Below, one piece after another: positions 32,651 through 60,262 of a stretch of 64,000 bases of DNA. How positions within the stretch are numbered: the first letter of the stretch is position 1; each line of letters starts with the position of its first letter. Under the pieces are notes generated by a model. The model worked only from the letters and a program-made list of their open reading frames with translations. It was not told the DNA's origin and did not search any database. The position numbers were made by a program, and so were the translations under genes. Origin of the DNA: Paramacrobiotus metropolitanus (taxonomy: Eukaryota > Tardigrada > Eutardigrada > Parachela > Macrobiotidae); the NCBI RefSeq assembly GCF_019649055.1, contig NW_026570418.1, forward strand, positions 62,001 to 126,000, read 5' to 3'.

Positions 32651-33980
32651 GTGTTTGGGAGTATACTAATGGGCGATGACCTTTGTCCAATTATAATCAT
32701 GCTGAATTCCGATAAATGAGATACTGTGCGTGTATGTATTTCGTGGCGGTGGCCGACGTACGGACATCTCTTGTTTCGTAATCGCTGATCAGTGATGACC
32801 TTTGCTGCGTAACGGACGATTAGAAGCTGGCCAGTTTTTGCAGCAGTGGTGTGGGTCAAAATCGTCGCTTGCCCTGAAATCATCACCAGCGAGAGTAAGA
32901 TACGAAAGGTCACATAGTTACATGAGTTTCTCTTAAACGCTAGTTTCCTGCTTGAAACTGCCACGGTGATATTGTTGAATTCCGCCAGTCTGGCTACCAC
33001 AGTTCTGCATGATTTTCGAGCGCCGCTTAATATTTCCATAACACTAACAATAATTAGGGCAATATTTTAGGTTTTATGTGAACGTTAACCTTTTTTTTGG
33101 TTTTTTGTTATTTTGGGGTAAAATAGATACGGATACGGTGCTTCAAAAACTGCTTGTAGTAAACAGGCTGGGAGCAGAAACCTGCTACGCAAAATGGTTT
33201 CCCGATTCTGGATCATGACGTGACTGACGTCGAGTACTGACGACAACGGTTGGCAAATTATTTTGGCCATTGAATTTACACGAGCACGTTTTCGCTTATA
33301 AAGCATTCTGTTTAAACTAGACTAAAGGTAGTAAATAAGGAATAAATGGAAAATTTGATGAAAATGTTCTAAACTGTCTTACACCGTGGAAAGGTATGCA
33401 ATTTTAGTTTTTTACAATTATATGACGCTAGTTAACCCTTACAATTAGGTTCGAGTTTCTGTATTACGTGTGCACTCGAGTGCACGCTTTAAAGTTGCCG
33501 CTTAACGTCATTTCACCGAGCAGCAGCGAAATGAGCCGTAACCAAAATAAGGAGAAGTCATCCGATATACTGTCGTTATAAGATATTTCTCCACATTAGA
33601 AGCCCGCAAAAACTGCAGTCCGGTTATAGATAGCTGCCTTCAAAAATTTTAGCATAGTTTCCCAAGATCTTTAATGCGGTACAGCTCCTACACGCGCAGA
33701 ACGTGAACCATGATACTAAAAAAATTCAAAAACTGATGAAAGTGTCCATGTGTATTTTACATGTCGCAAACTACTGCCAACTGATTTCGCTTTTTATACT
33801 TTCTCGAACTGTCCACTCACTCACTAGCCACTTCTCTACGTTTGTCATCATACAAAAGTAATTCACAGTGAATAGACAAAGAATGCGATAATAGTGTGGA
33901 CAGATGGGATTTCACGATCACACCTTGGCCAGCACAGGATGCTTGTGCTGGCCCAGGTGTTAGGGTACGTACTGTAGAAC
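32651..33980. other. No gene recognised
   Basis: Short minus-strand frames at 32632-33039 and 33085-33306 have no motif. Nothing else identifiable. Confidence 0.35.
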
Positions 33981-34469
33981 GGCCTAGACTCCAACTCTGA
34001 CTCTGACTCTGATTCTGACCACTCAAACTCTGACTCTGACCGCTCAAAGTCTGACTCTGACTCTGAAGGTTTCTTAGGTTTCTTAATAGGTTCTTAGGTT
34101 TCTTAGGTTTCTTAGGTTTCTTAGGTTTCTTAGGTTTCTTAGGTTTCTTAGGTTTCTTCGGTTTCTTCGGTTTCTTAGGTTTCTTCGGTTTCTTAGGTTT
34201 CTTAGGTTTCTTAGGTTTCTTAGGTTTCTTAGGTTTCTTAGGTTTCTTAGATTTCTTAAGTTTCTTAGTTTTCTTAGGCTTCTTAGGTTTCTTAGGTTTC
34301 TTAGGTTTTCTGAGGTTTCTTAGGTTTCTTAGGTTTCTTAAGTTATTCTTATGTTATTCAGTCAGAGTCAGAGTCAGAGTTTGGACAGTCAGAGTCAGAC
34401 TTTGAGTAGTCAGAGTCAGAGTTTGAGCGGTTAGAGTCTGAGTCAGAGTCAGAGCTTGAGCGCGGGCCC
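33981..34469. mobile_element. Fold-back element, copy 1, with 8-bp target duplication
   Basis: 489 bp. The outer arms are built of 6-bp units (CTCTGA on the left, TCAGAG on the right), so they are inverted to each other. The core (34064-34340) is about 30 units of TTTCTTAGG. The left end starts GGCCTAGACTCC and the right end reads GAGCTTGAGCGCGGGCCC. Both flanks carry TGTAGAAC (33973-33980 and 34470-34477), a perfect 8-bp duplication. Eight bp is the size made by hAT-type transposases, so mobilisation by one is inferred. No gene is encoded. Confidence 0.85.
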
Positions 34470-34477
34470 TGTAGAAC

Positions 34478-57868: not shown

Positions 57869-59505
57869 CTAGTCGGCGGCATTTTCTCCAGTCCATTCCT
57901 CCATCTCGTAGACGCTGGATTCGCCGTCGGCACGGCTGTCCTCACAGGCTGGCAGGTGATCCGCGTGCGCCGTGTCGTCCGGGGCGGATGCAGGACGGCG
58001 CTCCGCCGCATCCATCCAACGCGACAAGGCATACAAGCAGATGCGATTCAGCTGGTCCACATCTGCGCTGACCACATTCTCCTCACTCCACTGGCGTCCG
58101 CGATAGTGTGCCGAGGGGCGCGGATCGCAGGACTGCAAGTCCCGAAGGATCTGCACTACATATATCTTTTCTTCCAGCACAATTGGTTTCCTTGTCTAAC
58201 TCCATTTCAAAATTTTCTAATTTATTTTAATTTATACCAGAATAACTTTTTTTTTAGTTTATTTCTGAAATAAAATCATAAAAAACCAAGTCATTATTTT
58301 TTAACAAATAGCAATAATAAACAAAATGAAAACTTCGTTTTATCTGTGCGATGAAAAAAGGAACTTCTGTTTAATTACTATTTAAATAACAGCACCTGCA
58401 CATCAAAAATTCGATTAAATTCAGTGCCGATTCAGAAAAATTCAGTTAAATTCGATTAAGTTCAACAAACTAGTGCAATGAAATAAATGTTGAAGAAAAC
58501 ACCGAAGTTATTACTGTTTCATTTATTATTAGAAAAATTATCATCTCTCCATTTTAAAATAATTCACAAACAGCCCGAATTCGTTGGAATTTCCAGTCTA
58601 ATTAAAGCCGTACAGTAATTACGATCTTAAAACGTTTTACGTGATACTTTTTAACACAGCACACTAGCCGTTTCTACCTTGATCATTGGCCACGCGTCCT
58701 TCCCGCTCTGGCAGGCAAGGGCCAGGCTACCGACGATGCGCTGCAAATCCAACGGCGGTCCCGTCCAGTGCAGATGCCGCTCCAAGACCTCCACGATGCG
58801 CGCCGCATCGGCCTGTCCCGGGGTGAAGACGGCAGCGGGAATGCGGAACTCCATCCAGGGCGCGCCGACTTCATCCGGCAGGGTGAGGACGTAGCCCTTC
58901 CAAATCACCCGGTCACAGCACGCAAACAGTTGGGCCAGGTGCGCGGCCGTCTCGGCGGCCATGCCGGCCAGGCTGATCGGGGCCCCGCTGGCGTACAGCG
59001 CCGCCGACGCCCCGACCTCCACCGCTCGGTCGTACATGATCAACCGGTGCAGCCGTGTGCCGCTGCGGTCCAGGTGCCGGCGAATGAGACCCAGCGGTTC
59101 ATTGGCGATGTATTCGGCGTCCCGCAGGTACCAGCAGCGGCGGTGGTCGGTGGTGCTGCCGATGCAGACCCTGCGGGTGGCCGGTGTCAGGCATTTGACA
59201 ATACAACCGTATAAAACGTAATCGAAATGCCAGTGTGGAGGTGACGCCGAGTCGGCCGTCTGCTCCGCAACACGCACATCGCGGCAAAGCTCCGCCGACG
59301 TCAGAATGCTGTCCCACAGCTGACAGGTGCGACGGCAGCGTTGACGCGCGACGGTGTCAAGCGAGCGGAAAACCTCCTTCAGCACGTCCAACGACAACAC
59401 CAAACCATCTTCGCCGACATTCAACGGCTCCTCTTCTGGCGACGGGTGGGTGTTCTTCGGCAACTGGGCGAGAAAGGCAGGATGCCTTCGTTCACTGGCG
59501 AACAC
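57869..59505 (-). CDS. F-box protein gene, two exons, 369 residues
   Basis: Probable substrate adaptor of an SCF ubiquitin ligase (Skp1-cullin-F-box), inferred from the F-box. Exon 1 is 59505-58678 and exon 2 is 58150-57869. The intron (58151-58677, 527 nt) has AAG|GTAGAA and TGCAG|ATC junctions in phase 0. The ATG at 59505 opens the frame. Residues about 34-78 form the F-box: LVLSLDVLKEVFRSLDTVAR, then CRRTCQLWDSILTSAELCRD. A Leu-rich region follows, LIRRHLDRSGTRLHRLIMYD, then IVEVLERHLHWTGPPLDLQR. Exon 2 gives LQSCDPRPSAHYRGRQWSEE, DVDQLNRICLYALSRWMDAA and an acidic tail ending ENAAD. No stop or frameshift interrupts it, unlike the related pseudogene at 43-45 kb. The substrate-binding part matches no named repeat class. 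Coding GC is well above the flanks. The gene lies between inverted repeats and beside a fold-back element on its 5' side. Confidence 0.75.
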
Positions 59506-59623
59506 CCGAGCCTATATTAAAGACGGTTGGTGGGTTATAAATCGTAATCTGTCTGGTTTAATCCAAGTGCGCCAGGTTTCTTCAGTATTAGATGGACAGT
59601 TTTCAGATTCAGAACTTCTAATA

Positions 59624-60262
59624 GGCCCGCGCTCAAGCTCGGACTTGGACTCGGACTTGGACTTCTAAAACTTGGACTTGGACTTCACTTGGACTCTAAA
59701 ACTTGGACTTCACTTGGACACTAAAACTCGGACCTCACTTGGACTCTAAAACTCGGACTTCACTTGGACTCTAAAACTTGGACTTTATGACTTAGACTTG
59801 GAATTAGGCGTTTCTTATGTCTCTTATGTCTTCTTACGTTTCTTCATGGTTTCTTAGGTTTCTCAGGTTTCTTAGGTTTCTCAGATTTCTTAGGTTTTTT
59901 TAGGTGTTCTTAGGTTTTAGGTCCCTTAGGTTTCTTAGGTTCCTTAGGCTTCACGGAATACGAAACAATACCTAGATAACCTATGAAATGTTAGTAACCT
60001 CAGAAACCTAGGAACATGCAACAAACCTAAGAAACCTAAGAAATCTAAGAAACCTGAGAAACCTGAGAAAACATGAAGAAACGTAAGAAGACATGAGAAA
60101 CGCCTAAATCCAAGTCCAAGTCATAAAGTCCAAGTTTTAGAGTCCAAGTGAAGTCCGAGTTTTAGAGTCCAAGTGAAGTCTTAGTTTTAGAGTCCAAGTG
60201 AAGTCCAAGTCCAAGTTTTAGAAGCCCAAGTCCGAGTCCAAGTCCGAGCTTGAGCGCGGGCC
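59624..60262. mobile_element. Fold-back element, copy 2
   Basis: 639 bp and almost wholly palindromic. The left end GGCCCGCGCTCAAGCTCGGA mirrors the right end TCCGAGCTTGAGCGCGGGCC. Arms are ACTTGG/CTCGGA units, then TTTCTTAGG units on the left face CCTAAGAAA units on the right around about 59950. It has the same ends and the same 9-bp core unit as the element at 34.0 kb. No 8-bp target duplication is seen (TTCTAATA versus GCATTCGT). The right end directly abuts the retroelement copy that follows. Confidence 0.8.

Follow-up and report, generated by a model that had tools for sequence, protein, structure and literature searches.

Closest described systems

The FB and FB-NOF elements of Drosophila have fold-back arms made of tandem repeats, a 9-bp target site duplication, and a longer partner that carries a gene. 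The element analyzed here resembles them in these respects: arms, 9-bp duplication, and longer partner. Transposons of the hAT type are recognized by an 8-bp target site duplication, and a SWIM or FLYWCH zinc finger is common, if not universal, in the MULE superfamily.

Tm1 belongs to the Mutator/Foldback elements, forms a family in root-knot nematodes (PMC3169594), and is the nearest published parallel among the literature compared. Tm1 features the same 9-bp duplications; inverted ends built from a short tandem motif in variable number; outermost motifs that differ between the two ends; and short, MITE-like copies next to copies with a MULE-type transposase (PMC3169594). The long forms differ: Tm1-A has 2,593 bp, encodes a 496-aa FLYWCH-MULE protein, and carries other motifs (PMC3169594), whereas the long elements here have 17.7–19.4 kb and SWIM-like and Cys-rich regions.

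Rehavkus elements resemble the present family by description: a 9-bp duplication, a minisatellite inside or adjacent to the termini, and a long element (PMC6446971, PMC10218199). However, the published minisatellite lies "prior to the 3' TIR" (PMC6446971), whereas here tandem-repeat arms occur at both ends, and the reported PHD finger (PMC6446971, PMC10218199) is not recognized here. Rehavkus-1_TC has 9.5 kb, and its inverted termini contain repeats of 164 bp (PMC10218199); the long elements here are about twice that size, with units of 6–33 bp.

Tetris of Drosophila virilis is likewise a non-autonomous fold-back element with tandem repeats in inverted ends and a link between transposon and satellite (PMC4079207). 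It differs in having units of approximately 220 bp that turned into satellite arrays, and a search for its autonomous partner was unsuccessful (PMC4079207), whereas a candidate partner is found here. The open-access literature searched holds no report of the ends or the core letters described below.

The 488-bp fold-back element

The window is a stretch of 64,000 nucleotides from the tardigrade Paramacrobiotus metropolitanus. It contains a fold-back element of 488 bp with A-type arms at positions 33,981–34,468 (minus strand, the GGCCCGCGC end first being the family orientation). Each terminus carries GGCC. The GGCCTAG end (GGCCTAGACTCCAACTC; 33,981–33,997, plus strand) was identified by the genome count of GGCCTAGACTCCAACTCTGA, and the GGCCCGCGC end (GAGCTTGAGCGCGGGCC; 34,452–34,468, plus strand) by its own genome count. 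Repeat and inverted-repeat analysis places the left inverted arm, made of CTCTGA and 21-bp units, at 33,989–34,062 and the right one at 34,387–34,460 (both plus strand). The arms are 89% complementary across 74 nt and consist of 6-bp and 21-bp units, so that the long inverted ends of tandem repeats typical of Foldback elements are present. Between them, tandem-repeat analysis finds the core at 34,067–34,344 (plus strand), with 30.6 copies of AGGTTTCTT. The fold-back is strong—the DNA z-score is −9.4, and none of 100 shuffles equals it. A preceding sequence-only reading had described such a fold-back with 6-bp-unit arms and about 30 copies of a 9-bp unit, and the measurements bear this out.

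Comparison of the flanks reveals a 9-bp target site duplication, CTGTAGAAC, at 33,972–33,980 on the left and at 34,469–34,477 on the right (no strand assigned to either). The same reading had proposed defined ends, and GGCC does stand at both; the last base that it gave to the element, 34,469, is a duplicated base, and the element ends at 34,468. Its perfect 8-bp duplication TGTAGAAC has to be replaced by the 9-bp CTGTAGAAC.

A (KKP)n reading frame stays open through the core on the minus strand (33,817–34,353). The main periods of A-type elements—6, 9, 21, and 27—are all multiples of 3, and hence this open frame is probably a by-product of them. Just beyond the element, at 33,920–33,960, lies a 17-nt inverted repeat, ACACCTTGGCCAGCACA / TGTGCTGGCCCAGGTGT, of 94%.

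Family size and target site duplications

The element belongs to a family, as had been supposed. The GAGCTTGAGCGCGGGCC end has 203 exact copies in the 169.8-Mb genome and the other end, GGCCTAGACTCCAACTCTGA (20 bases), has 83; the reversed-pattern control for the former and the control for the latter gave 0. For the duplications, 64 loci were fetched from 100 of the 203 places, with approximately 800 bases per locus; they hold 67 ends and, together with three ends of the window, yield 70. The 9 bases flanking the GGCCCGCGC end on its outer side were compared with the 9 bases after each GGCC located at least 50 bases inward. Among the 70 ends, 55 have CTCTGAC arms (type A) and 15 have CTTGGACTT arms (type B).

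A 9-bp duplication beside a far-end GGCC is perfect in 21 of 70 ends (17 of type A and four of type B), and is found in 28 with at most one mismatch, in 35 with at most two, and in 38 with at most three. When left flanks were swapped among copies, the mean number with at most one mismatch was 0.045 and never exceeded 1 in any of 200 swaps. The length of the duplication is sharply defined. With the GGCC ends as the starting point, none of the 70 shows a perfect match of exactly 7, 8, 10, 11, or 12 bases, and one shows a perfect match of 6; among the 22 copies in agreement at the first eight bases, 21 are also in agreement at the ninth; and flank agreement falls to 0.17–0.29 immediately beyond the 9 bases. 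Of the ends, 32 have no duplication within three mismatches, 11 of them having no far GGCC in the approximately 800 bases fetched. One of the 32, L031, is the end of a giant element with a perfect duplication (see below), and the remainder are still without one.

These lengths bear on the proposal that the element is a hAT transposon, with an 8-bp duplication and a hAT transposase acting in trans. The genome does contain such transposases (53 matches). However, duplications of exactly 8 bases are missing among the ends counted, the ninth base takes part in nearly all of them, and the giants with the same ends hold a gene linked to MULEs. The hAT reading is rejected on the duplication length of 9 bp and is very improbable. 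A duplication of 8–11 bp, commonly of 9 bp, is a trait of MULEs and is found in the short copies and the giants alike.

The imperfect duplications (among the loci L034, L046, L060, L032, L039, L052, L053, and L061) follow a pattern of their own. In the 14 copies with one or two mismatches, 14 of 21 mismatched bases sit at positions 7–9 of the duplication, with G there on the side of the GGCCTAG-type end in 10 of 14. At L034, L046, and L060—the last with three mismatches—six bases are duplicated and GGCCCG comes next, a sequence identical to the initial six bases of the element. The pattern resembles a footprint left by repair or by a neighboring element since lost.

At L009, L010, and L048 as well as at L006, L017, and L047, the ends sit inside larger repeats, and their outer flanks are almost identical. 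Duplication rather than transposition thus produced some of the 203 ends.

Empty sites

For each of the 21 perfect copies, the two flanks were fused around one target copy, and the resulting junction was searched in the genome. Paralogous matches that span the junction were found for four of the 21 insertions (L024, L026, L042, and L063). Six matching places were aligned, and all six read across the junction, lacking the element and having one target copy, which is identical in L090, L091, and L092 and one base off in L093, L094, and L095. The empty paralogue of L024 (99%) shows one difference in 155 positions. The remaining 17 junctions yielded no paralogue among the 40 candidates scored out of 289, which says little.

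The duplications and the empty sites tell against a view in which the copies are no transposons at all, but fragments of a satellite dispersed by replication or recombination, with flanks that resemble duplications by chance. It draws on the wide spread of the 9-bp unit—1,336 matches to three units, and 19 of 20 sampled arrays outside these elements—and on the ends that lie within larger duplicated stretches. Against it stand the empty sites and the 28 duplications with at most one mismatch, of which no swap in the null gave more than 1. On these two grounds, an origin as a chance repeat or a piece of satellite is rejected as exceedingly improbable. The idea that DNA resembling a satellite has moved as a transposon is upheld by the 9-bp duplications and the empty sites.

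The second copy of the window

A second, palindromic copy occupies positions 59,624–60,262 (no strand assigned), with B-type arms (CTTGGACTT) and the 17-bp end on both sides. The arms comprise 137 nt at 96%, and tandem-repeat analysis places the core, arrays of 9-bp GTTTCTTAG in both orientations, at 59,810–60,101 (no strand assigned). The flanks carry no target duplication, 7 of 9 bases being mismatched. The sequence-only reading had joined this copy with the 488-bp element. In favor of this, the two have the 17-bp end and the 9-bp core in common, but their arm repeats differ, the second copy having the CTTGGACTT type, and it lacks a duplication. An F-box ORF of 286 aa (58,651–59,511; E 0.00018) adjoins the second copy.

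Giant elements with matching ends

The ends at L031 and L040 lead into long non-repetitive DNA that is common to both. The L031 end forms the left terminus of a giant element on C7, which features 167-bp inverted ends of CTCTGAC units, the duplication CGTACAAAT, and a right end one base off the 17-bp end. L040 (C9) is an internally deleted copy, and its far side enters N. The 377-aa ORF of the C7 giant, used as query, has 18 genome matches, and two of the best lie inside further complete elements on C368 and C59. The three complete giants have lengths of 19,375 bp (C7), 18,953 bp (C368), and 17,725 bp (C59); each carries a perfect 9-bp duplication, and their ends equal the 17-bp family end with 0–1 mismatch.

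The C368 giant has the duplication TTCTCAAAC, A arms, and a transposase block 95% identical to that of C7. The C59 giant has the duplication TATTGAAAC, CTTGGACTT arms, 65% identity to C7, and the 17-bp end with one difference. In a second C59 copy the right end is of B type, and the 25 kb fetched contain no left end. A more distant element on C455 (56% identical to C7) has the right end GCGCGGGCC and yet another arm unit, with no left end within the 20 kb fetched. The arm repeat hence tracks the transposase lineage: CTCTGAC occurs in two giants of one lineage, and CTTGGACTT in one that is 65% identical.

The ends of the window copies can be set against those of the giants. The GGCCCGCGC end of the 488-bp element agrees with the C7 and C368 ends at 93–94 of 106–107 positions, compared with 80 of 109 for C455 and 72–75 of 104–105 for C59. 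At the GGCCTAG end the likeness is lower, with agreement to C7 and C368 at 84–87 of 102–106. The second window copy agrees with the C59 ends at 79–84 of 98–106 and with those of C7 and C368 at 76–78 of 104, such that C59 is only slightly better.

Among 322 arthropod MULEs, the greatest length reported is 10.0 kb (PMC13359780). By that figure, the candidate giants are nearly twice as long as the longest arthropod MULE (PMC13359780).

Coding content of the giants

The long elements contain three conserved blocks on the same strand: 377 aa, 412 aa, and a Cys-rich one of approximately 130 aa. The ratio dN/dS is 0.11 for the first block (C7–C368), 0.18 for the second (C9–C368), and 0.04–0.06 for the Cys-rich third (pairs of C7, C9, and C368); a 44-codon piece of the second block (C9–C7) gives 0.55, with few changes. 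For pairs with C59 and C455, silent sites are saturated. The second block of C7 is broken in frame, the first block of C455 contains a stop, and neither was mended. The protein-coding gene of the giants is kept under purifying selection. In a tblastx comparison of C7 with C59, those of the best 40 of 107 rows that fall outside the blocks all lie at approximately 13.6–14.3 kb, in both orientations; for C368 with C59, the best 40 of 148 also include short matches near 1.5–2.1 kb and 13.3 kb.

A Pfam scan of the three blocks, with E up to 1, returned no MULE domain and two weak unrelated names. The second block features a SWIM-like zinc motif (Pfam E 0.12, 12.4 of the 19.6 bits asked). The connection to MULEs runs via intermediates. 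Both main coding regions are united in a single ORF in the relatives L082 and L083, which match PF10551 (MULE) with E 0.0015 and 0.00019, at 19.4 and 22.2 bits compared with a cut-off of 27.6; the other relatives scanned, L081 and L084, do not match it. The family profile finds L082/L083 with E 1.4e-21, compared with E 0.34–0.77 for F-box and FABP controls, and four PF10551 proteins of the genome weakly (E 0.02–0.04, probability 1–2%). In addition, FDVLYTV, FVSDEQPALYE, and NNATETANS contain aligned D, D, and E residues, with C..H between the second D and E; we read this D..D..(C..H)..E arrangement as the MULE pattern. With reservation, the giant gene may be regarded as a Mutator-like transposase, linked through intermediates below the Pfam cut-off.

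Two further readings, one narrower and one rival, have to be weighed here. The giants may be elements of the Rehavkus type, which are sisters of MULEs or lie within them. The 9-bp duplication and minisatellite termini fit the published description (PMC6446971), and the giants have a conserved Cys-rich block. However, Pfam with E up to 1 recognizes no PHD finger in the three coding blocks—the gene model being incomplete—and the zinc motif of the second block is SWIM-like. We regard the Rehavkus assignment as possible but somewhat doubtful; it is compatible with the preferred reading as a Mutator-type element. A fold-back element of the P superfamily such as Galileo would likewise have long, internally repeated inverted ends. 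The transposase of the giants, however, links to MULE, and its three blocks contain no THAP or P-type match at Pfam E up to 1, so this origin is highly unlikely.

The 9-bp core outside the family

Three AGGTTTCTT units in a row match the genome 1,336 times (control 0). From 100 listed matches, 20 arrays were fetched out of the first 21 away from known ends, C5:1821916 being passed over. The single array that lies in a family element by its ends is L099, whose duplication has two mismatches; the other 19 lie outside this fold-back family and include at least three other repeat families. Across the sample, a duplication with at most one mismatch occurs in 0 of 20 and with two mismatches in one of 20, compared with means of 0.1 and 0.5 in shifted controls, which is no excess. 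On account of these 19 arrays, the core array is rejected as a feature exclusive to this family.

Among these, L111 and L116 represent a different fold-back family, with arms of 16-bp tandem units (CATTCATTTTGGCCAC) around a AGGTTTCTT core. L101, L103, L109, L110, L112, L113, L114, and L117 form a separate repeat family with a AGGTTTCTT core and conserved flanks.

The giants contain 0–1 exact AGGTTTCTT units and lack the core array. A derivation of the short elements from a giant by simple deletion is therefore not supported.

Proposed mobilization and wider reading

With its ends, its 9-bp duplications, its empty sites, and giants that carry matching ends and duplications, the 488-bp element is very probably a non-autonomous fold-back transposon of the Mutator type, mobilized in trans by the 18–19-kb elements. 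The transposase would be supplied by those giants in which the GGCCCGCGCTCAAGCTC end is followed by CTCTGAC arms, and the short element would move by cut-and-paste. The enzyme itself may be a divergent Mutator-like DDE transposase (MULE in the broad sense, Rehavkus included), predicted to make target cuts staggered by 9 bp. Its binding sites are probably arrayed in the tandem-repeat arms, and the 9-bp core may serve as filler.

More tentatively, the genome may house at least three giant, satellite-armed Mutator lineages (18–19 kb; C455 known by a single end). Every lineage would have an arm repeat peculiar to it, arms and transposases evolving as matched recognition arrays. The AGGTTTCTT core, taken up by short copies of two arm types and by at least one quite different fold-back family (L111/L116), would then point to exchange of the core, or selection for it, between unrelated elements.

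The elements constitute a new family within the known fold-back/Mutator kind. Unusual are the giant size and the core, which is common to other families yet missing from the giants. Short copies, empty sites, and transposase candidates with matching ends occur together in one genome and make the role of simple-repeat arms testable. The same genome renders the exchange of repeats between transposons and satellites testable as well.
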